Of a stretch of DNA of 29,180 nucleotides, positions 3,327-12,499 are shown one piece after another. Numbering within the stretch: position 1 is the stretch's first letter; each line of letters opens with the position of its first letter. The DNA lies in the IMG/VR virus record IMGVR_UViG_3300040944_000004, positions 1 to 29,180 of that record, one strand, 5' to 3'. Under the pieces are notes generated by a model. That model was not told where the DNA came from. It saw only the letters and a list, made by a program, of their open reading frames with translations, and ran no database searches. Source of the stretch: a virus. A program made the position numbers and the translations under genes.

Positions 3327-3923
3327 ATGACGGTCTCCACCCCCGAACTCGCAGCCGCCTTCGGCATCTCCCGCCAGCGCGTGAACGAGCTTGGCCGCAA
3401 GGGCAAGATAATCCGCGAGCCTGACGGCCGCTGGGACGTGGAGAAGGTGCGCGCGGCGCTGGGCCGGAATCTGGACATCCGCCAGGTGTCCCCCGCGCGC
3501 GGTGAAGCGCCGCCGCAGACAGTCGGCAGGCGGCCAACCGACCCGCCGCGAAATGGGGTATTTACTGGTGATCCTGGCGGGGCGAAATCGGGTGAAATGG
3601 GGACGGACATGATTCCAGACACCGGCCCGGCCGTAGGTACCTTGGCCCACGCGCAACTGGTACACGAGACCGCGAAGGCGAAGAAAGCGGCGCTCGAAGC
3701 GCGGCGGCTGGAGGGTAGCTTGGTTGACCGCGAAGCAGTGGAGGCCGAGTGGACCGCAATAGGCTCAGAGATTCGGGACAGAGTAATGGCGTTGCCGTCC
3801 CGTGTGATCAATCGTTTACCCAGCGAATGGAGATCGCAACTGCTGCCCGTGATCGAAGAGGAGGCGCGGTCCATGCTAACCGTGCTGAGTGATGGAATCC
3901 GCTCCGCTTCAAGGGCTGCGTGA
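3327..3923 (+). CDS. Terminase small subunit (Nu1-like)
   Basis: A 198-residue protein from the ATG at 3327 (TTG at 3309 is an in-frame alternative). The N-terminus MTVSTPELAAAFGISRQRVNELGRKG is a winged-helix/helix-turn-helix of the Nu1/terminase small-subunit type, which binds cos DNA. Next come an acidic-basic linker and a helical segment (AHAQLVHETAKAKKAALEARRLEG) typical of the family's oligomerisation region. The C-terminal 'EWTAIGSEIRDRVMALPSRV' resembles the 'W......a.....l..lp.....' ending that contacts the large subunit. It overlaps the large-subunit gene by 35 bases, the usual coupling in this module. Assignment is strong from sequence and position; the start is uncertain because no clear ribosome site is visible. 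Confidence 0.85.
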   Translation: MTVSTPELAAAFGISRQRVNELGRKGKIIREPDGRWDVEKVRAALGRNLDIRQVSPARGEAPPQTVGRRPTDPPRNGVFTGDPGGAKSGEMGTDMIPDTGPAVGTLAHAQLVHETAKAKKAALEARRLEGSLVDREAVEAEWTAIGSEIRDRVMALPSRVINRLPSEWRSQLLPVIEEEARSMLTVLSDGIRSASRAA

Positions 3924-5919
3924 TGCGCTTGCCGATGCCTTACTTCCGCCGCCGATCCTGCTGCTTTCGGAATGGGCGCGAAAGAAGTTCGTGCTTAGTT
4001 CGGACTACGCGGGTACGACCGGGGATTTTGTGCCGTACCCGTACCAGATCGAGCCGCTTGACGTCCTCGGTCCTTCGAACCCGGCGGAAACTATGTGTTT
4101 GATGTGTGGCGCCCAGATGATGAAGACGCTCCTCATGATGATCCTGCTCGGCTACGTGATCGACGCCGAGCCGGGGCCGGTCCTTATCGTCCAGCCCAAC
4201 GAGGCCGACGCCAAGGCTTTCTCGGCGGAGCGCGTGGCACCCATGCTGCGCGACCTGCCGTGCCTGCGGGGCAAGGTCCACGAGGCGAAATCTCGTGATG
4301 CGGGCAACACCATCCTGCAGAAGCGCTTCGCCGGCGGATCTATCGCGCTCACCGGGACGGTATCTTCCCGCGGTCTGCGCCGCCGCTCAGTGCGCTACCT
4401 GCTGATGGACGAGATTGACGGCTATGAAGACACCCGCGATGGCGATCCGGTTTCACTGGCCGCCGCGCGCACTTCGAAGTTCTGGAATCGCAAAATCGTC
4501 AAATGCTCGACCCCGACCTCCGAAGGCCGGAGCCGGATCGCTGCAGCGTTCGAACTCTCCGACCAGCGGCTATACTTCGTACCCTGCCCGCTGTGTGGAG
4601 AGATGCAGGCATTGGAGTGGAGGCCGTCTCCAGATTCTGGCGTTCGATGGGGCGACGTCGACGGCCAGTACATCGAGCCGGAAGCGGCTATGTACCAATG
4701 CGCAGGATGCCATGGGCTTATCCCCCATCACCGCAAACTGGAAATGCTGCGGGCCGGCGAGTGGCGCGCGACGAACCCGGATGGCAAGTATCCCGGCTTC
4801 CGAATCTCCCGGCTCTATTCCCCGGACTGGGCCTGGGGCAAGGTGGTGACTGACGCCGATGAGGGCTGGATTCCAGCGCAGGGTCACCCAGAAAAGTTGC
4901 GAGTCTTCGTCAACAACACCCTGGCTGAGACCTGGCGCGAGCCCGGGGAGGCTCCGCCGGACTACGAGAAGCTGATGGGCCGCAAAGAAGATTACTCGCT
5001 CGGTGAGGTTCCCGACGGCGTGTTATTCCTGACGGCGGGTGCGGATGTCCAGAAGACGTGGCTCGAAGGCTACGTTTGGGGATGGGGCAGGAATCGCCAG
5101 CGCTGGCTCGTGGATTGGTGGCGCATCGACCAATCGCCCTTTGAGCCGGGCGCGTGGGAGCAACTCGAGGCAAAGCTTCAGCAGACTTACCGCCATCCCT
5201 CCGGTGCCGAGTTGAGCATCGTCCGCATGTGCATCGACTCCGGTTTTGCCGGCAACGAGGTCTATGCCTTCTCCAAGCGGCACGGCTCCTCGCGCGTGCT
5301 GGCTGTGGATGGCCGCCCCACTGGCCGGGCGCTGGTGGACCCACCCAGCCTGGTGGATCTCACAGTCCGAGGCCGAAAGATCACCCACGGCTGCAAACTC
5401 TGGCCGGTCAACGTCTCGATGGCGAAGCAGGAGCTGTATGCGCAACTCAACCGCGAGCGGCCGGCGCGCGGCGATCCGTACCCGGCGGGGTGGGTCCATT
5501 TCCCGATCGATGCCCCCGAAGAGTTCTACCGGCAGTTGACCTCCGAGGAATTCAGGCTGAGCGTCCGAAAGGGCGGCGTCCGGAAGTACCACTGGGAGCC
5601 GATCGAGAACCGTAGACACGAAGCGCTCGATTGTGCGAACTACGCGCGCGCCGGCGCCTTCGTGTTGGGAATTGACCGCTTCGGGGAAGCGCAATGGGCG
5701 CATCTGGAGAGTCTGCTGAATGTGAAGACGTTGCCGGCGGCAGCGTCAACGCAACAGAAGAAAGGCCCAGATTACGCCGCCCTGCGGACTCAGGAGCAAC
5801 AGGCGACAGCGCCATCGCCGCCGGCCGAAACCGCCCCACAGCCGGTGGAAGCACAGCAGCAGCAGCAGCGGCAGCCGCGGTATATCGGCCGCTTCGACGT
5901 GACCAACTGGCTGGGATAA
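3889..5919 (+). CDS. Terminase large subunit, GpA family
   Basis: A 676-residue packaging motor ATPase/nuclease of the lambda gpA type (numbered from GTG 3889; ATG 3892 is equally likely). Visible motifs are a deviant Walker A CGAQMMKT (73-80), a 'GPVLIVQPNEADAKAFSAERVAPM' block (97-119), Walker B LLMDEIDGY (171-179), and the coupling motif CSTPTSEG (206-213). A zinc-ribbon pair follows, CPLC (233-236) and CAGC (271-274). The RNase H-fold nuclease has acidic residues at D386 (TAGADVQ), D450 (MCIDSGF) and D581 (HEALDCANYARAG). The C-terminus is Gln-rich (a run of five Q) and ends DVTNWLG, the likely portal-contact tail. The length is normal for the family. The enzyme cuts concatemers and pumps DNA into the prohead through the portal encoded downstream. 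Confidence 0.95.
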   Translation: MMESAPLQGLRDALADALLPPPILLLSEWARKKFVLSSDYAGTTGDFVPYPYQIEPLDVLGPSNPAETMCLMCGAQMMKTLLMMILLGYVIDAEPGPVLIVQPNEADAKAFSAERVAPMLRDLPCLRGKVHEAKSRDAGNTILQKRFAGGSIALTGTVSSRGLRRRSVRYLLMDEIDGYEDTRDGDPVSLAAARTSKFWNRKIVKCSTPTSEGRSRIAAAFELSDQRLYFVPCPLCGEMQALEWRPSPDSGVRWGDVDGQYIEPEAAMYQCAGCHGLIPHHRKLEMLRAGEWRATNPDGKYPGFRISRLYSPDWAWGKVVTDADEGWIPAQGHPEKLRVFVNNTLAETWREPGEAPPDYEKLMGRKEDYSLGEVPDGVLFLTAGADVQKTWLEGYVWGWGRNRQRWLVDWWRIDQSPFEPGAWEQLEAKLQQTYRHPSGAELSIVRMCIDSGFAGNEVYAFSKRHGSSRVLAVDGRPTGRALVDPPSLVDLTVRGRKITHGCKLWPVNVSMAKQELYAQLNRERPARGDPYPAGWVHFPIDAPEEFYRQLTSEEFRLSVRKGGVRKYHWEPIENRRHEALDCANYARAGAFVLGIDRFGEAQWAHLESLLNVKTLPAAASTQQKKGPDYAALRTQEQQATAPSPPAETAPQPVEAQQQQQRQPRYIGRFDVTNWLG

Positions 5920-6435: not shown

Positions 6436-6674
6436 AACCTATCCGCCGGTTCTTGGCTTGGTGGGCCGCGCGCCCTGAGACGTTGATGGCGCTGATAAAC
6501 CGTCCGCGCCCCGCTTCAACCTCGAAGCTCTATGTGGTCGAGATCGACTTTTCCATGCCTCCGCCGATGATGGAGGATTTCGAGAAAAACCTGGACAGGC
6601 TGCGGGAGAAATTCGGCTTGGACTTCCTCATGGTCGAGCCTGGCATAAAGCTGAAGAGATTCGATGACTTCTGA
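6432..6674 (+). CDS. Small hypothetical protein
   Basis: An 80-residue protein starting MKPIRRFLAWWAARPETLM, where a basic, Trp-rich amphipathic N-terminus could touch membrane. It continues with SKLYVVEIDFSMPPPMMEDFEKNLDRLREKFGLDFLMVEPGI, a compact alpha/beta-looking unit. It is not recognised. It is coupled upstream by ATGA and overlaps the portal gene by 11 bases. Confidence 0.55.
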   Translation: MKPIRRFLAWWAARPETLMALINRPRPASTSKLYVVEIDFSMPPPMMEDFEKNLDRLREKFGLDFLMVEPGIKLKRFDDF

Positions 6675-8388
6675 CACCCTCACGCCCGAAGTATTGCCCG
6701 CAACCTCCCGCCTGCCAGTCCTGCGCCGCGACTGGTCCGTGCCGCAACCGATGACCGTACAGCGCATGAGGGCGCAATTGGTCTCGGAGTACATGGACCG
6801 CCACGCCCAACGGTTCAGCTATGACGGAGCATCGGCCGGCCGCCGCACTCATGGCTGGTACGCCCCATCCTCGGACGCCAACGTCGAGTTGATGGGATCG
6901 CTGGTCTGGCTTCGCAACCGGAGCCGCGAACTGACCCGCAATAATCCCTACGCGGTTAAAGCGGTCGAGGAGTTGGCGGGAAACGCGGTCGGGACCGGGA
7001 TCGTCCCGCAGGCAAAGACGGGCGACGCCGGAATCGACAAGACCATCGATAACGAATGGGCTTACTTCGTCGAGCAGTGCGACACGCCGCAACGTCTGGA
7101 CTTCTACGGGATGCAGGCATTGGTCATGCGGACCATGGCTGAGAGCGGCGAGGCCGTCCTGCGGTTCCGGCCGCGGCTCACGGAAGACAATTTGCGCGTG
7201 CCGCTGCAACTCCAGTTGCTCGAGGCGGACTTCCTCGATCAATTCCGCACGATGGGAACGGTCAACGGTCACGTCATGCAGGGCGTGCAGTTCGATCTAT
7301 TGGGGCGCCGGGTGGCGTACTGGATCTACACGTATCATCCCGGCGGCGTCCTGATTCTCAATCCGCGCGGCGGCATTGTGAGCCAGCCGGTGCCGGCCAG
7401 CCAAATCCTGCACGCCTATCGCGTGCTTCGGCCAGGCCAGGTGCGTGGCGTGCCCTGGCTGGCGCCGGTCATGCTGGCGCTCCGCGACCTGGACGATTAC
7501 TGCGATGCGGAACGGGTTCGCAAGAAGATCGAAGCCTGCATGGTGGCGATGATTACGCAGGCGGAGGGCATCGAGGGATCATGGATGGGATACAAGGGAA
7601 CCGATCCGCTTACGAGTCATCCAGTGGAGAGCTTCCAGCCCGGCATGGTGTCCTACCTCAAGCCTGGTGAGGATGTGAAGTTCAACACCCCGCAAGCGGC
7701 AGGCGGCTACCGCGATTACAAGACCACCGAACTTGAAGGGATCATGGCAGGCCTCGGTGTTCCCTACGAGCTCGGCACCGGCGACATGTCGAAGGTCAAC
7801 TTCTCCTCGTGGCGCGGTGGCATGCTGGGCTTCCGCAATACCATCGAGAATTACCGCTGGTTGACGCTGATCCCCATGGTCTGCATGCCAGTGCGGCGCC
7901 GCGTGATCGACCTCCTGGTCCTCCTGGGCAAGATTCCAGCGCGCGCGGTGGAGGATCCGAAGCTCAACCTGTATGCCACCCAGTGGACTGCCCCGCGGTT
8001 CGAATCGGTGGATCCGGTGAAGGACGCCGAGGCCGCGCTGAAGGACGTCCGCATGGGCCGGAAGACGTGGTTCGAGGCCGTCCTCGAAAATGGCTTCGAT
8101 CCCAACGCCCAACTCGCCCAGATTGCGCTCTTCAACAAGCTCGTGGACAAGTTCGAAATCATCCTCGATTGCGATCCGCGCAACGTCACGCTGCGCGGCC
8201 AGGAGCAGCCGGCCGCCACAGAGGAGCGCACGCCCAGCAGCAAGGCGGTCGCGGGCAGCAAACAGAGCCAAGGGTTGGCCGCCCTCTCGGAAGAGGACCT
8301 GGCGATGGTCAAGGAGCTTCTGGTCGCGGGCTCATCGGCGCGCGCCGATCGCGATTGGGGAAGCGCCACAAGGACGTATCTCACGTAG
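6664..8388 (+). CDS. Portal protein, lambda gpB family
   Basis: A 574-residue portal of the lambda family (Phage_portal_2). The typical signatures are visible: 'SRELTRNNPYAVKAVEELAGNAVGTGI' around residues 87-113, 'MRTMAESGEAVLRFRPR' around 155-171, 'LQLQLLEADFLDQF' around 180-193, a 'GRRVAYWIY' strand, and 'SQILHAYRVLRPGQVRGVPWLAPVM' around 245-270. The later 'GLGVPYELGTGDMSKVNFSSWRGG' segment is the crown/stem boundary typical of these proteins. The dodecameric ring it forms is the DNA entry pore, the docking site for terminase and later for gpW. The length is slightly more than lambda gpB; the extra residues are a Ser/Ala/Lys-rich C-terminal tail. Confidence 0.93.
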   Translation: MTSDTLTPEVLPATSRLPVLRRDWSVPQPMTVQRMRAQLVSEYMDRHAQRFSYDGASAGRRTHGWYAPSSDANVELMGSLVWLRNRSRELTRNNPYAVKAVEELAGNAVGTGIVPQAKTGDAGIDKTIDNEWAYFVEQCDTPQRLDFYGMQALVMRTMAESGEAVLRFRPRLTEDNLRVPLQLQLLEADFLDQFRTMGTVNGHVMQGVQFDLLGRRVAYWIYTYHPGGVLILNPRGGIVSQPVPASQILHAYRVLRPGQVRGVPWLAPVMLALRDLDDYCDAERVRKKIEACMVAMITQAEGIEGSWMGYKGTDPLTSHPVESFQPGMVSYLKPGEDVKFNTPQAAGGYRDYKTTELEGIMAGLGVPYELGTGDMSKVNFSSWRGGMLGFRNTIENYRWLTLIPMVCMPVRRRVIDLLVLLGKIPARAVEDPKLNLYATQWTAPRFESVDPVKDAEAALKDVRMGRKTWFEAVLENGFDPNAQLAQIALFNKLVDKFEIILDCDPRNVTLRGQEQPAATEERTPSSKAVAGSKQSQGLAALSEEDLAMVKELLVAGSSARADRDWGSATRTYLT

Positions 8389-8402: not shown

Positions 8403-8516
8403 ATGACGGATTTCTGGAGCACTTATAAGCCGATCATCATGGCGATTGTTTTTGCTTGCGCGGTGACGGGTTTGCTTGTGTGGAACGATCCAACGTTGCT
8501 CCATGCTTGCCGCTGA
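8403..8516 (+). CDS. 37-residue single-span membrane peptide
   Basis: A short gene beginning MTDFWSTYKPIIMAIVFACAV and ending with the stop at 8514-8516. It encodes 37 residues: a short polar N-terminus, a hydrophobic helix (IIMAIVFACAVTGLLVW) and a small cytoplasmic or periplasmic tail. AAGGGA at 8389-8394 lies 8 bases before the ATG and is a plausible ribosome site. It sits in the gap between portal and the bacterioferritin-like gene. No family is recognised; small membrane peptides in phages are often lysis or superinfection-exclusion factors, but here that is only a guess. Confidence 0.5.
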   Translation: MTDFWSTYKPIIMAIVFACAVTGLLVWNDPTLLHACR

Positions 8517-8545
8517 GAGTAACAACCCAACAAGGAGCTAAACCA

Positions 8546-9040
8546 ATGAAAGGTAATCCGAAAGTCATGGCTGGCCTGCAAGAATCCATCAACCTCGAGG
8601 CCAGCCGCTCGGCGCAGTACAAACTGGATGGCATCGACGCCAAGCGTTTCGGTCTGGAGATCGCTGGCGACCTCCTGACCTTGCACCAGCAATCCGAAGA
8701 CGCTCAGGACGGCCTGGTCAGTCGCCTCTTCTTTTTCGAGGGCGAACCGGAGATTGCCGCCCAGACCGCCAAACCGCATCAGGATTTCGGCTCTCTCATC
8801 GCCGATCACATCGCCGCCGAGACAGCGCTGGTCGGTCGCTTCCGTGAATTGGCGAAGGAAGCCTGGGACGCGGGCGAGATCGACACGGCGCACAGCTACG
8901 AGCACCTGGCGAACTATCACACGGTCGGATGCGCCATCGGCGGCAACGAGCACAAGGGCCATCTGGCTTGGCTTCAGAAACAACTGTGGCAGCGCGGCAA
9001 GCTGGGCGAGACCGATTACATCGCCGTGCAGGCCGGCTAG
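8546..9040 (+). CDS. Bacterioferritin-like four-helix protein
   Basis: A 164-residue protein with AAGGAG at 8532-8537 placed 8 bases before the ATG. It aligns by eye end to end with bacterioferritin. MKGNPKVMAGLQESINLE matches the Bfr opening with its ligand E18, and Y25 is conserved. 'RLFFFEGEP' matches the 'RILFLEGLP' turn. 'DHIAAETAL' supplies E92 for Bfr E94. 'GHLAWLQKQL' supplies H139 for Bfr H130. The ferroxidase site is altered: the first ExxH reads E51-D-A-Q54, and the second reads E135-H-K-G-H139. The heme-ligand methionine (M52) is absent. The fold is likely ferritin-like, but iron oxidation is uncertain. It might be a structural or DNA-protecting (Dps-like) protein. Its position between portal and capsid protease is unusual. 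Confidence 0.8.
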   Translation: MKGNPKVMAGLQESINLEASRSAQYKLDGIDAKRFGLEIAGDLLTLHQQSEDAQDGLVSRLFFFEGEPEIAAQTAKPHQDFGSLIADHIAAETALVGRFRELAKEAWDAGEIDTAHSYEHLANYHTVGCAIGGNEHKGHLAWLQKQLWQRGKLGETDYIAVQAG

Positions 9041-9049
9041 GAGCAAACC

Positions 9050-11677
9050 ATGTCACTACTCGGACAGACCATCGAAACTCTGGGAGCCATCGGCGTCCAT
9101 CACACGGCCGTCGATAAAGACGGCGCCTGGGATGCCGGGGCGAACCTGAAGCGCCTGGGCGACAGTCCATCGAAAGACGCGCTCCGGGCGATGCACGCCT
9201 GGGTGGACCCGTCAAAGGACGCGGCCACAAAGGGAGCCTACAAACTCCCCCATCACGACGTCTCGGCGGACGGCAAGGTGGGCGCCGCGAACATGGCGGG
9301 CTGCGCAGCCGCGATGGGGCGGCTGAACGGGGGCGGCCTCGACATTCCGGCAGATGACAAGAAGGCCGTCCACGCGCATTTGGTCGCGCACTACAAGGAC
9401 GCGGGCAAGGATGCCCCGGACCTCAAGGCTGGCGCGTGCACCGGCGGCGAGACGATCTTTCAGGGCGAACTCTTCTCGGCGGCCCACGATGAGATCAGCT
9501 TCGCTCCGCAGACCGCGGATGCCAAGAATCGCACGGTCGATGTGGTCTGGTACGGCGGACAGACCGTGCCGCGCTACGACGCCGAGACGGACACGGATTA
9601 CATGCTCCGCTTGAATATGGCGGGCTGCCGCATGGCGCGCCTGAACGCTGGCGCCCCGGTATTCGATTGCCACATGACGGGTACGGATTTCAAATCCATC
9701 GTGGCGAACCAGGCCGGCGCGAAGGCGCAGCGCGGCTCTGTGGTCAAAGCCTGGGCCGATGGAGCGGCGGGGAAAGCAACACTGCAATTCGGAGTCGAAG
9801 GCGAGAACAAGGACACAGACCAACTCTGGTCCGGCATCGCCTCCGGGCGTATCCGAAACCTCAGTTTCGGGACGTGGATCTACAGCAAGCAGCCGGTCAA
9901 GGACGCCAGCGGCAACGGCACGATGGCGCCTCATCCGAGCGGCAAGCAGGCGCCGGTCTTCGAGGCTACCGATTGGGAGCCTTTCGAGGTCTCGGCGATC
10001 ACGGTGCCTGCCGATTTTTCTACTCAATTTCTGTCCGCGTTGGGAGCGGACGGACGACGGGCAACCAGCCCAAATCAGGAGAGAACCGTCATGGAAGAGA
10101 CGACTCAGACGGGCGCGGAAGCCCGTAACAATCAGGCAGTACTCGATGCGGCGCGCACCGAGGGAGCGACGTTGGAGCGCCAACGGGTGGCCGAAATCAC
10201 CACGCTGGCAACTAACTTCAAATGCCAAAAACTCGGGGCCACGCTGATCGCATCGGGCGCAACGGTGAAAGAGGCGGAAGCCAAGTTCGCCGCCGCCAGC
10301 GAAATCCGCACCATCGGGACTCCGCATCTGAAGCACGGCATTACCACGGAGTTTCTGGACGGGCTGATCGACACCGGTACGACGCTCGATGCGGCCAGGG
10401 CCAGCATTCTTCAGGAAATCGAGAAGCAGGGGAGCCGCGGGGTGGGCGGCCACCGGGTCGATGTCAGAACCGAGCTCTCCATCACGCGCGATCAGCAGGA
10501 AACGTTCGGCGAGCAGATGACGGCCGCCTTGTTGCTGCGCTACCAGCCGGGCTTCTTCGGTCCGACCCGCGGCGCGGAGGTGGCCGCGGAGACCCGCCGG
10601 CAGCTCGACCTGGGCAAGCAGTTTCGCGGCTTGAAGCTTATCGAGATGGCGCGGGAGTACCTGGAAATCTGCGGCATCAGGACCCGCGGCATGGGGCCGG
10701 ACGTGATCGCGGCAAAGGCGCTCATCCCCAAAGTTCCGCGCTTCTCGTTCGAGTTGTTCGAGGGCGGCGCCGAATCCACGTCCGATTTCCCCGGCATCCT
10801 GGCCAACGTCGCCAACAAAACCCTGGTCCCGGCTTACCAGGCGTACCCGCAGACTTTCCGGCCGCTGGCCCGCCAGCAGACGGCGCCCGATTTCAAGCCG
10901 ATCAATCGCGCCTTCCTCTCGGATTTGGCGGCGCTGCCGAGGCTGAACGAGAAAGGCGAGTACCACCGCGCCATTCTGACGGACGGAAACGTCAGTTATT
11001 CGCTGGCGACTTACGGCGAGGTGGTGGCTCTGACGCGCAAGACGATCATCAACGATGACCTCCAGGCCTTCACGCGCACGCCGGCGGAACTCGGTGTGGC
11101 GGCCTCCAGAATGGAATCGGATGTCGTCTGGGGTATCGTGCTGGCCAACCCCTCTGCGGTGTATATGGGCGACAAGACCTCGGTGGCGCTGTTCGCCGCT
11201 GGCCACAAGAACTTCCAGACAGGCGCTCCCTCGGCTTTCGCCGTGGCGTCCCTCGCCACCGGGCGGACGCTCTTCCGCCAGCAGACTGGCCCGCAGGGCA
11301 CGCCCCTCAATCTCACGCCGCGCTACCTCGTCACGGGGACCGCGCTCGAAACCACGGTCGAGCAGACCATTTACCCGATGCAGTTGGCAGTCACGGCGGT
11401 GACCGCGGGTGTTCCTCCCTGGGTGCGCTCGCTGGTCCCGGTGGTGGAGCCGCGCCTCGACGCCTTAGCGACCTATGGCGCGACGGCTTGGTACCTGTTC
11501 GCCGACCCGGCGGACGTGGCCGGGCTGGAATACGCGTTCCTGGAAGGTCAGGAGGGCGTGTTCCTGGAGACTCGCCAGGGCTTCGAGGTGGATGGAATCG
11601 AGATCAAGGCGCGTCACGATTTCGGCGCCGCGGCAATCGACTACCGCGGCATTCAGCGGAGCAACGGCGCTGCGTAG
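9050..11677 (+). CDS. Prohead protease / scaffold / major capsid fusion protein
   Basis: An 875-residue fusion. Residues 1-125 are the small N-terminal domain often attached to phage proteases (KGAYKLPHHDV, GLDIPADDKKAVHAHLVAHYKD). Residues about 130-330 are a prohead protease: likely catalytic His208 (VFDCHMTG), Ser272 (RIRNLSFGTWIYS) and the 'WEPFEVSAITVPADF' block (E313, S315). Residues about 345-470 are a charged helical scaffold (EARNNQAVLDAARTEG, LERQRVAEI). From about 480 a Mu gpT-like major capsid domain follows (YPQTFRPLARQQTAPDFK, YSLATYGEVVALTRKTIINDD, LGVAASRMESDVVWGI, LNLTPRYLV). Fusion proteins of this order are known in Mu-like heads; self-cleavage releases capsid subunits. It starts 9 bases after the ferritin-like gene with GGAGC upstream. 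Confidence 0.9.
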   Translation: MSLLGQTIETLGAIGVHHTAVDKDGAWDAGANLKRLGDSPSKDALRAMHAWVDPSKDAATKGAYKLPHHDVSADGKVGAANMAGCAAAMGRLNGGGLDIPADDKKAVHAHLVAHYKDAGKDAPDLKAGACTGGETIFQGELFSAAHDEISFAPQTADAKNRTVDVVWYGGQTVPRYDAETDTDYMLRLNMAGCRMARLNAGAPVFDCHMTGTDFKSIVANQAGAKAQRGSVVKAWADGAAGKATLQFGVEGENKDTDQLWSGIASGRIRNLSFGTWIYSKQPVKDASGNGTMAPHPSGKQAPVFEATDWEPFEVSAITVPADFSTQFLSALGADGRRATSPNQERTVMEETTQTGAEARNNQAVLDAARTEGATLERQRVAEITTLATNFKCQKLGATLIASGATVKEAEAKFAAASEIRTIGTPHLKHGITTEFLDGLIDTGTTLDAARASILQEIEKQGSRGVGGHRVDVRTELSITRDQQETFGEQMTAALLLRYQPGFFGPTRGAEVAAETRRQLDLGKQFRGLKLIEMAREYLEICGIRTRGMGPDVIAAKALIPKVPRFSFELFEGGAESTSDFPGILANVANKTLVPAYQAYPQTFRPLARQQTAPDFKPINRAFLSDLAALPRLNEKGEYHRAILTDGNVSYSLATYGEVVALTRKTIINDDLQAFTRTPAELGVAASRMESDVVWGIVLANPSAVYMGDKTSVALFAAGHKNFQTGAPSAFAVASLATGRTLFRQQTGPQGTPLNLTPRYLVTGTALETTVEQTIYPMQLAVTAVTAGVPPWVRSLVPVVEPRLDALATYGATAWYLFADPADVAGLEYAFLEGQEGVFLETRQGFEVDGIEIKARHDFGAAAIDYRGIQRSNGAA

Positions 11678-11700: not shown

Positions 11701-11727
11701 CGGGGCGGTGAACAAATCGCCGCCCCG
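11701..11727 (+). promoter_or_regulatory. Intercistronic hairpin before decoration gene
   Basis: CGGGGCGG (11701-11708) and CCGCCCCG (11720-11727) form a perfect 8-bp GC stem with an 11-base loop between capsid and decoration genes. It is followed by TAAAAAG rather than a T run, so it is not a classic terminator. RNA processing or stability control is possible. The decoration gene's ribosome site AAAAGGAGAA (11737-11746) lies just beyond it. Confidence 0.55.
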
Positions 11728-11755
11728 TAAAAAGAGAAAAGGAGAACCAACTCAC

Positions 11756-12499
11756 ATGATCAACTTCGTGCAACGAGGGGCAACCCTCACCGTTCTGGCG
11801 CCCTACGTACTCACCAGTGGCGCCGGCTGCCGCGTCGGAAACATTTTCGGTGCCGCAGTCAACAATCAAGCCCAGGGCGACTCAAGCGAGATCGTCCTGG
11901 AAGGCGTGTTCGATCTCGCCAAAGACAGCAGCACCTTCGCCTCCGGCGACCTGGTTTACTGGGACGACGTCGCGAAGGCTGCCACCAGCACGGTCGGCAG
12001 CAACCTGCTGATCGGCGAGGCGACGCTCGACCAGGCCAGCGGGACGGCCGCGCTCGGAGGAGCTTCCGGCGATGCGACCGTGCGCGTCAGGCTGTTCGGC
12101 GTGCCGGGATTCTCCGGCCAGGTCAACGGGCTGCGCGTGGCGCACGCGCTCTACGATTACAGCGTGGACGGCGGGGTAAGTTGCACGCCGGCCCAATCGG
12201 ACACCATTCCGGCGAAGGCGGTGGTGCATGGCGGCGTCATCAACTCGACCGTTGCCTGCACCGCCGGGGGTTCCGCGACGGTGGCATTCGGCACCACGGC
12301 GGGATCGGCGGCCAATTCGATTCTGACGGCGACGGCTATCGCGAGCCTCTCGCTCGACGCTGTGGTCAATCCGACCTGCAAGACCACGCCGTTCAAGATG
12401 TCGGCTGCTGGCCAGATCTCGGTGGCTATCGCCACCGGGCCGCTCACGGCCGGGCAAATCGAAGTCTGGGTGATTTACCAGCTCGCCAGCAACGCGTAG
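11756..12499 (+). CDS. Capsid decoration protein, DUF2190 family
   Basis: A 247-residue protein with AAAAGGAG upstream, which decides the ATG at 11756 over the in-frame GTG at 11708. Residues 1-125 match DUF2190: 'NFVQRGATLTVLAPYVLTSG', 'GCRVGNIFGAAVNNQAQG', 'VLEGVFDLAKDS', 'GDLVYWDDVAKAATST' and a final 'GDATVRVRLFG'. DUF2190 proteins decorate or cement capsid shells. Residues about 126-247 are a Thr/Ala/Val-rich extension (NGLRVAHALYDYSVDGG through IEVWVIYQLASNA) that reads as beta-sandwich, perhaps a surface-exposed head-fibre domain. The extension makes the protein about twice the family's core length. Confidence 0.85.
   Translation: MINFVQRGATLTVLAPYVLTSGAGCRVGNIFGAAVNNQAQGDSSEIVLEGVFDLAKDSSTFASGDLVYWDDVAKAATSTVGSNLLIGEATLDQASGTAALGGASGDATVRVRLFGVPGFSGQVNGLRVAHALYDYSVDGGVSCTPAQSDTIPAKAVVHGGVINSTVACTAGGSATVAFGTTAGSAANSILTATAIASLSLDAVVNPTCKTTPFKMSAAGQISVAIATGPLTAGQIEVWVIYQLASNA

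Follow-up and report, generated by a model that had tools for sequence, protein, structure and literature searches.

Why would a tailed phage keep a bacterioferritin-like gene in the middle of its head operon, and what might the protein be doing there? The gene in question (8546–9040, ATG to TAG, 164 amino acids) lies in a 29-kb viral contig, all 29,180 nucleotides of which were analysed and are here called the window; this and all other window features described below are on the forward strand. It is preceded by the genes for the terminase large subunit (3889–5919; phrog_15, 2.3e-214) and the portal protein (6664–8388; phrog_21, 5.6e-87) and, in the gap behind the latter, by a small open reading frame for 37 amino acids with an apparent single membrane helix (8403–8516, read directly). 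Downstream follow the genes for a fused head maturation protease and major capsid protein of 875 amino acids (9050–11677; phrog_4523, 3.9e-163; phrog_133, 7.5e-73; Pfam Phage_capsid_4, 1.1e-51), a head decoration protein (11708–12499; phrog_122, 4.1e-20) and the tail proteins. The gene is hence situated inside the head module, where a head or virion protein would be expected to be encoded. An original prediction for this locus had placed the gene between portal and capsid protease and had credited it with a strong ribosome site of its own; both statements hold, the latter owing to an AAGGAG sequence (8532–8537, read directly) 8 bases 5' of the ATG. Only 9 bases separate the stop codon from the start of the next gene. 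The 37-residue open reading frame is missing from a close relative (L003), in which the end of the portal gene and the bacterioferritin-like gene are 13 bases apart.

Judged from sequence comparison and a structural model, the product is a bacterioferritin (Bfr) homologue with a confidently predicted Bfr fold. A phmmer search of the PDB with the single sequence returned bacterioferritins as top matches (3e-5), the best being a mixed Bfr cage (9h1u), and a profile of four members improved the Bfr match to 6.6e-9. The predicted structure (mean pLDDT 91.9, pTM 0.86, based on a nine-sequence alignment) probably comprises the five helices of the Bfr fold; its top PDB match extends over the whole length (TM 0.89, E 1.7e-7), and all of the best 50 fold matches listed are Bfrs or ferritins. 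The proposed whole-length alignment with bacterioferritin is thus borne out by the phmmer and profile searches and by the predicted fold, and neither profile nor fold pointed to an unrelated helical family. With the NCBIfam model bfr (TIGR00754), however, the protein scores 18.3 bits (E 0.0018), and even the best relative (E 7.5e-9) stays, like it, far under the curated cut-off of 125.55 bits, so that the protein is to be regarded as a divergent relative and not as a standard Bfr. Full-length profile homology and the position of its clade beside bacterial Bfrs, in a tree of unknown root, indicate common descent with the bacterial proteins. The helix-A motif of Dps (HW...G..F) is absent from the sequence, as is a basic DNA-binding tail, and the acidic character of the protein (pI 5.3) does not favour a direct coating of DNA. 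Weak matches to Chap-C (Pfam, 0.036) and a tail tube family (PHROG, 0.12) were judged to be due to chance.

Close homologues do not reside solely in bacterial iron loci, an outcome that would have spoken against a phage function, but sit in the head modules of other viral contigs, in the same slot with the portal gene on one side and the protease gene on the other. This slot is common to three types of protease, namely the fused protease-capsid protein, a ClpP-like head protease (L010 and L011, with a PF04860 portal) and an S78 protease (L014, likewise with a PF04860 portal). In a scan for contigs that was based on the portal and did not use the Bfr gene as a query, 50 of 80 contigs carried the Bfr-like gene; in 20 it was absent, with portal and protease genes almost adjoining, seven had a stub and three could not be decided. 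In a tree with 20 bacterial Bfrs, the 30 remodelled proteins from the head slot cluster together (support 100/99), but long branches make the deeper placement of this group unsure. The clade was encountered in these searches exclusively in uncultured viral contigs. Annotated cultured phages yielded no relative of the window protein, and matches to its relatives in the cultured-phage search turned out to be ordinary Bfrs in bacterial-looking or unannotated records. Bacterial and archaeal genomes gave ordinary Bfrs only (21–34% identity) and, since this applied to all matches in bacterial genomes, no prophage carrier; related phages with the gene at the same locus were accordingly found among viral contigs and not as prophages. 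Two of the adjoining proteases have cysteine-rich parts. The S78 protease directly 3' of the Bfr-like gene in L014 (3300–3818) possesses a Cys-rich, probably helical N-terminal domain that might bind metal; a relationship to copper-storage proteins was considered and rejected, as there was no significant sequence or fold match and the model was poor. The ClpP-like head protease of L010 (5511–6764) has a Cys-rich stretch and a DUF6582-like C-terminus.

Within this group the gene behaves, by sequence comparison, as an exchangeable and dispensable cassette. In L008/L075 the portal is 99.5% identical to that of the window, the Bfr-like protein just 54%. The latter instead shares 82% of its residues with its counterparts in L097, L101 and L102, although the portals of these three are only 74–76% identical to the L008/L075 portal. 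This mismatch indicates that the gene was swapped in place. Presence, absence and stub states require at least five changes on the portal tree, and in seven contigs (L104, L108, L110, L113, L114, L115 and L143) an in-frame deletion has left just the initiation codon and those next to it from the Bfr-like gene, which run into the protease linker and now open the protease-capsid gene, demonstrating that the Bfr-like gene can be lost. Since many close relatives lack it or have deleted it, it is not required for assembly. Where present, the protein is under strong purifying selection, as pairwise dN/dS values are low (0.06–0.11) and near those of the portal (0.07–0.08).

Members of the ferritin superfamily recur at the same position in other phages. 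Three contigs (L015, L019 and L020) encode a Bfr with the full ligand set, flanked by a PF04860 portal and an S78 protease. These canonical head-slot proteins are placed among bacterial Bfrs in the tree (98/98), although a single group of canonical and remodelled head-slot Bfrs is not rejected by the AU test (p 0.36). A position-independent scan of viral contigs for the Dps motif identified at least 57 contigs with Dps. In at least four, the Dps domain is fused in one open reading frame to an S78 prohead protease, between portal and capsid (L186, 3879–5450; L194, 428–2275; L207, 1385–3598; L216, 2213–3574), in agreement with structural matches in the viral model library that are named 'prohead protease'. 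In at least 11 further contigs (L158, L170, L175, L180, L190, L193, L211, L225, L229, L230 and L231), Dps, either separate or fused to a DUF5824-type region, is located directly 3' of a phrog_776-type portal. These counts are not independent, because some contigs are related, the profiles for the neighbouring genes derive from the earliest cases (L175 and L180 for the phrog_776-type portal) and the stretches are short. The phage Dps proteins, including the four S78 fusions, resemble the window protein in superfamily, in their place beside the portal and in that they either form one chain with the head protease or precede it; they differ in belonging to the Dps subfamily with its HWN..G..F motif and in often being a fusion and not a separate gene. 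Other ferritin-type genes lie outside head genes, as do Dps of Streptomyces phage Jay2Jay and of Aeromonas phage BUCT695. Likewise, the 65-kb viral contig L275 encodes a Bfr with the usual ligand motif away from its head genes (4001–4465). The Bfrs of L016/L021 and L273/L274 were rejected as head-slot cases since they look like host genes at prophage edges.

That unrelated phages have ferritin-type proteins at this position, or as a fusion with the protease, suggests that such proteins are used with, or inside, the growing virus shell. In HK97-type heads the prohead protease acts within procapsids. We therefore consider the best single reading of the genes and the predicted fold to be an accessory head protein of ferritin origin that works together with the procapsid or within it, and would give this reading a probability of about one half. 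The original prediction had offered an internal head protein, a DNA-protection protein or an iron-handling cargo as candidate roles; the recurring slot and the Dps-protease fusions lend comparative support to a role in the head. Besides the recurrence of the slot in unrelated head modules and the fusion of ferritin domains to the procapsid protease, it is favoured by the presence of the gene in the slot of 50 of the 80 portal-found contigs, by its low dN/dS, by the canonical Bfr in the same slot of three contigs and, as a hint, by a ferritin-like product reported from preparations of Salmonella phage Sajous1 (PMC10892097). Against it we count the loss of the gene in close relatives, the acidic nature of the protein, the lack of an evident encapsulin-type loading extension, and the fact that head genes are not the only location of Dps and canonical Bfr in phages (Jay2Jay, BUCT695, L275).

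The same loss and exchange would suit a late-expressed accessory that acts in the infected cell, on iron or on oxidative stress, with the portal-protease junction being merely a permissive and highly expressed site of insertion. It would also suit the usual description of phage ferritins and Dps proteins as stress or metabolic genes (PMC6669764, PMC8008677), several of which lie outside head genes. A permissive site, however, accounts neither for the recurrence of ferritin-type genes at this junction across unrelated head modules nor for the fusion of Dps to a prohead protease, and the canonical ferroxidase ligands are lost in the clade, so that we regard this explanation as rather unlikely.

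The extent of that loss became apparent from a MAFFT alignment with 20 bacterial Bfrs, in which clade columns were counted over 38 sequences. In the Bfr ferroxidase, E51 and E127 bridge the metals, while E18, H54, E94 and H130 are terminal ligands. The set is incomplete in the window protein: E18 (codon 8597–8599), E94 and H130 (H139 in the window protein, codon 8960–8962) are kept, and E51, H54 and E127 are replaced. The protein lacks one residue between helices A and B, which brings S50 into the E51 column, E51 into that of the heme-binding Met52 and A53 into that of H54 (codons 50–53, S-E-D-A, 8693–8704; this register assumes that the gap lies in the A-B loop). The bridging E127 is replaced by H125 (codon 8918–8920), a histidine in all 38 sequences, and between H125 and H139 the model predicts a hairpin insert in helix D (residues 128–137, 8927–8956), which most members share between positions 127 and 130 and which L013 and L014 lack. 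Across the clade, E18 is conserved in 92%, E94 in 100% and H130 in 97%; the E51 column holds Cys in 30, Ser in five and Ala in three sequences, and position 54, Ala in the window protein, is His in 25 of 38. In window numbering, H120, H125 and E92 do not vary at all, and H116 and H139 hardly vary. The original prediction was thus correct in listing E18, Y25, E92 (equivalent to E94) and H139 as kept and the heme methionine as missing, and in calling the ferroxidase site altered, but not in the residues it named for the alteration: Q54 is out of register with H54, and E135, proposed to pair with H139 in E135-H-K-G-H139, is not the counterpart of E127, its column being Lys in 25 of 38 relatives. 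Compared with bacterioferritin (TIGR00754; PDB 1bcf and 8sqr), the window protein is therefore alike in length, N-terminus, predicted whole-chain fold and the equivalents of E18, Y25, E94 and H130, and differs in the replacement of E51, E127 and the heme methionine, in the insert, in its score below the cut-off and in being encoded in a phage head operon. These alterations make a normal di-iron ferroxidase unlikely and a different metal site in the clade plausible.

They could alternatively mean that the site is an evolutionary leftover in a purely structural helical bundle that aids portal or protease incorporation or prohead assembly. The gene's position in an assembly operon is in line with this, as are L103 and L132, whose proteins have lost even E18 and yet are under purifying selection (dN/dS 0.10). 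A leftover site, however, would not need these three invariant and two nearly invariant residues, the gene is dispensable in close relatives, and the head-slot proteins of L015 and L019 have all ligands preserved; we therefore hold a purely structural role to be improbable. A further possibility is sabotage of the host iron store during infection, which the protein would disable or redirect by joining host Bfr subunits in mixed assemblies. This would be in keeping with the protein's Bfr-like length and N-terminus (MKG..K/xV), with the loss of both bridging ligands and the heme methionine and with the existence of mixed cages such as 9h1u, but appears very improbable, since co-assembly is doubtful at about 20–25% identity to Bfrs and with an insert in helix D, and since it offers no reason why the gene occupies the head slot or why other phages have protease fusions.

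Under the preferred reading of an accessory head protein, phages would have captured a bacterioferritin and retained it in the head operon as an accessory gene. The protein would be made alongside the portal and the head protease and would most likely co-assemble with the procapsid, as an internal or a portal- or protease-associated oligomer. Its ferroxidase centre has been rebuilt, with both bridging glutamates gone, one of them being now an invariant histidine, and with an insert at the site; because of this rebuilding, the protein probably binds metal without canonical oxidation of Fe(II) or heme-dependent release of iron. The outcome might be less metal-driven damage to packaged DNA or to the capsid.

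Encapsulin shells belong to the HK97 lineage, and encapsulins with ferritin-like cargo have a ferritin-type gene beside that of the shell protein. The window is alike in that its ferritin-type gene adjoins the gene for an HK97-lineage shell; it differs in that this shell is that of a phage, which also encodes a terminase, a portal and a tail. The chain stops at the Bfr C-terminus with no C-terminal loading extension, although some loading signals could escape recognition. It may tentatively be speculated that tailed phages repeatedly put Bfr-derived and Dps proteins with the portal-protease pair for enclosure in the procapsid. This would amount to a viral analogue of the ferritin-loaded encapsulin, serving to protect the DNA in the head or to manage metal there, and the Bfr-derived branch would have evolved a new His-containing metal site. 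If enclosed, the protein would rank, to judge from these searches, as the first cargo of ferritin type in a true virus capsid; it would link phage heads with encapsulins, make it possible to study directly how metal-driven damage to packaged DNA is prevented, and add a new variant to the known ferritin metal sites. Without enclosure, too, the recurrence of ferritin-type genes at the portal-protease junction calls for an explanation.

No report of a Bfr or Dps at the portal-protease slot was found in the open-licence literature, where phage Dps, ferritins and Bfr are usually treated as stress or metabolic genes (PMC6669764, PMC8008677, PMC11780533). The ferritin-like product gp217 of Sajous1, an Ackermannviridae-type phage, was detected by mass spectrometry of phage preparations and has been proposed to function in iron-mediated entry (PMC10892097). 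It is similar to the window protein in being a ferritin-like phage product reported from a particle preparation, a likeness drawn from its description, and differs in being encoded in a tail-region operon and not in the head slot. Two peptides of host Bfr were reported from particles of Stenotrophomonas phage AXL1 (PMC9206674) and may be contamination.

Some variation was also seen around the gene. The protease-capsid protein of the window has about 110 additional N-terminal residues (9050–9480), which are present in L008 and missing from L003. The terminases of the window (3889–5919) and of L003 (1–1569) are 37% identical and the portals 95%, indicating an exchange of the terminase between close relatives. 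Finally, L118 (5701–6953) and L147 (5680–6447) carry about 0.8–1.2 kb of additional DNA in the gap between the portal and the Bfr-like gene.
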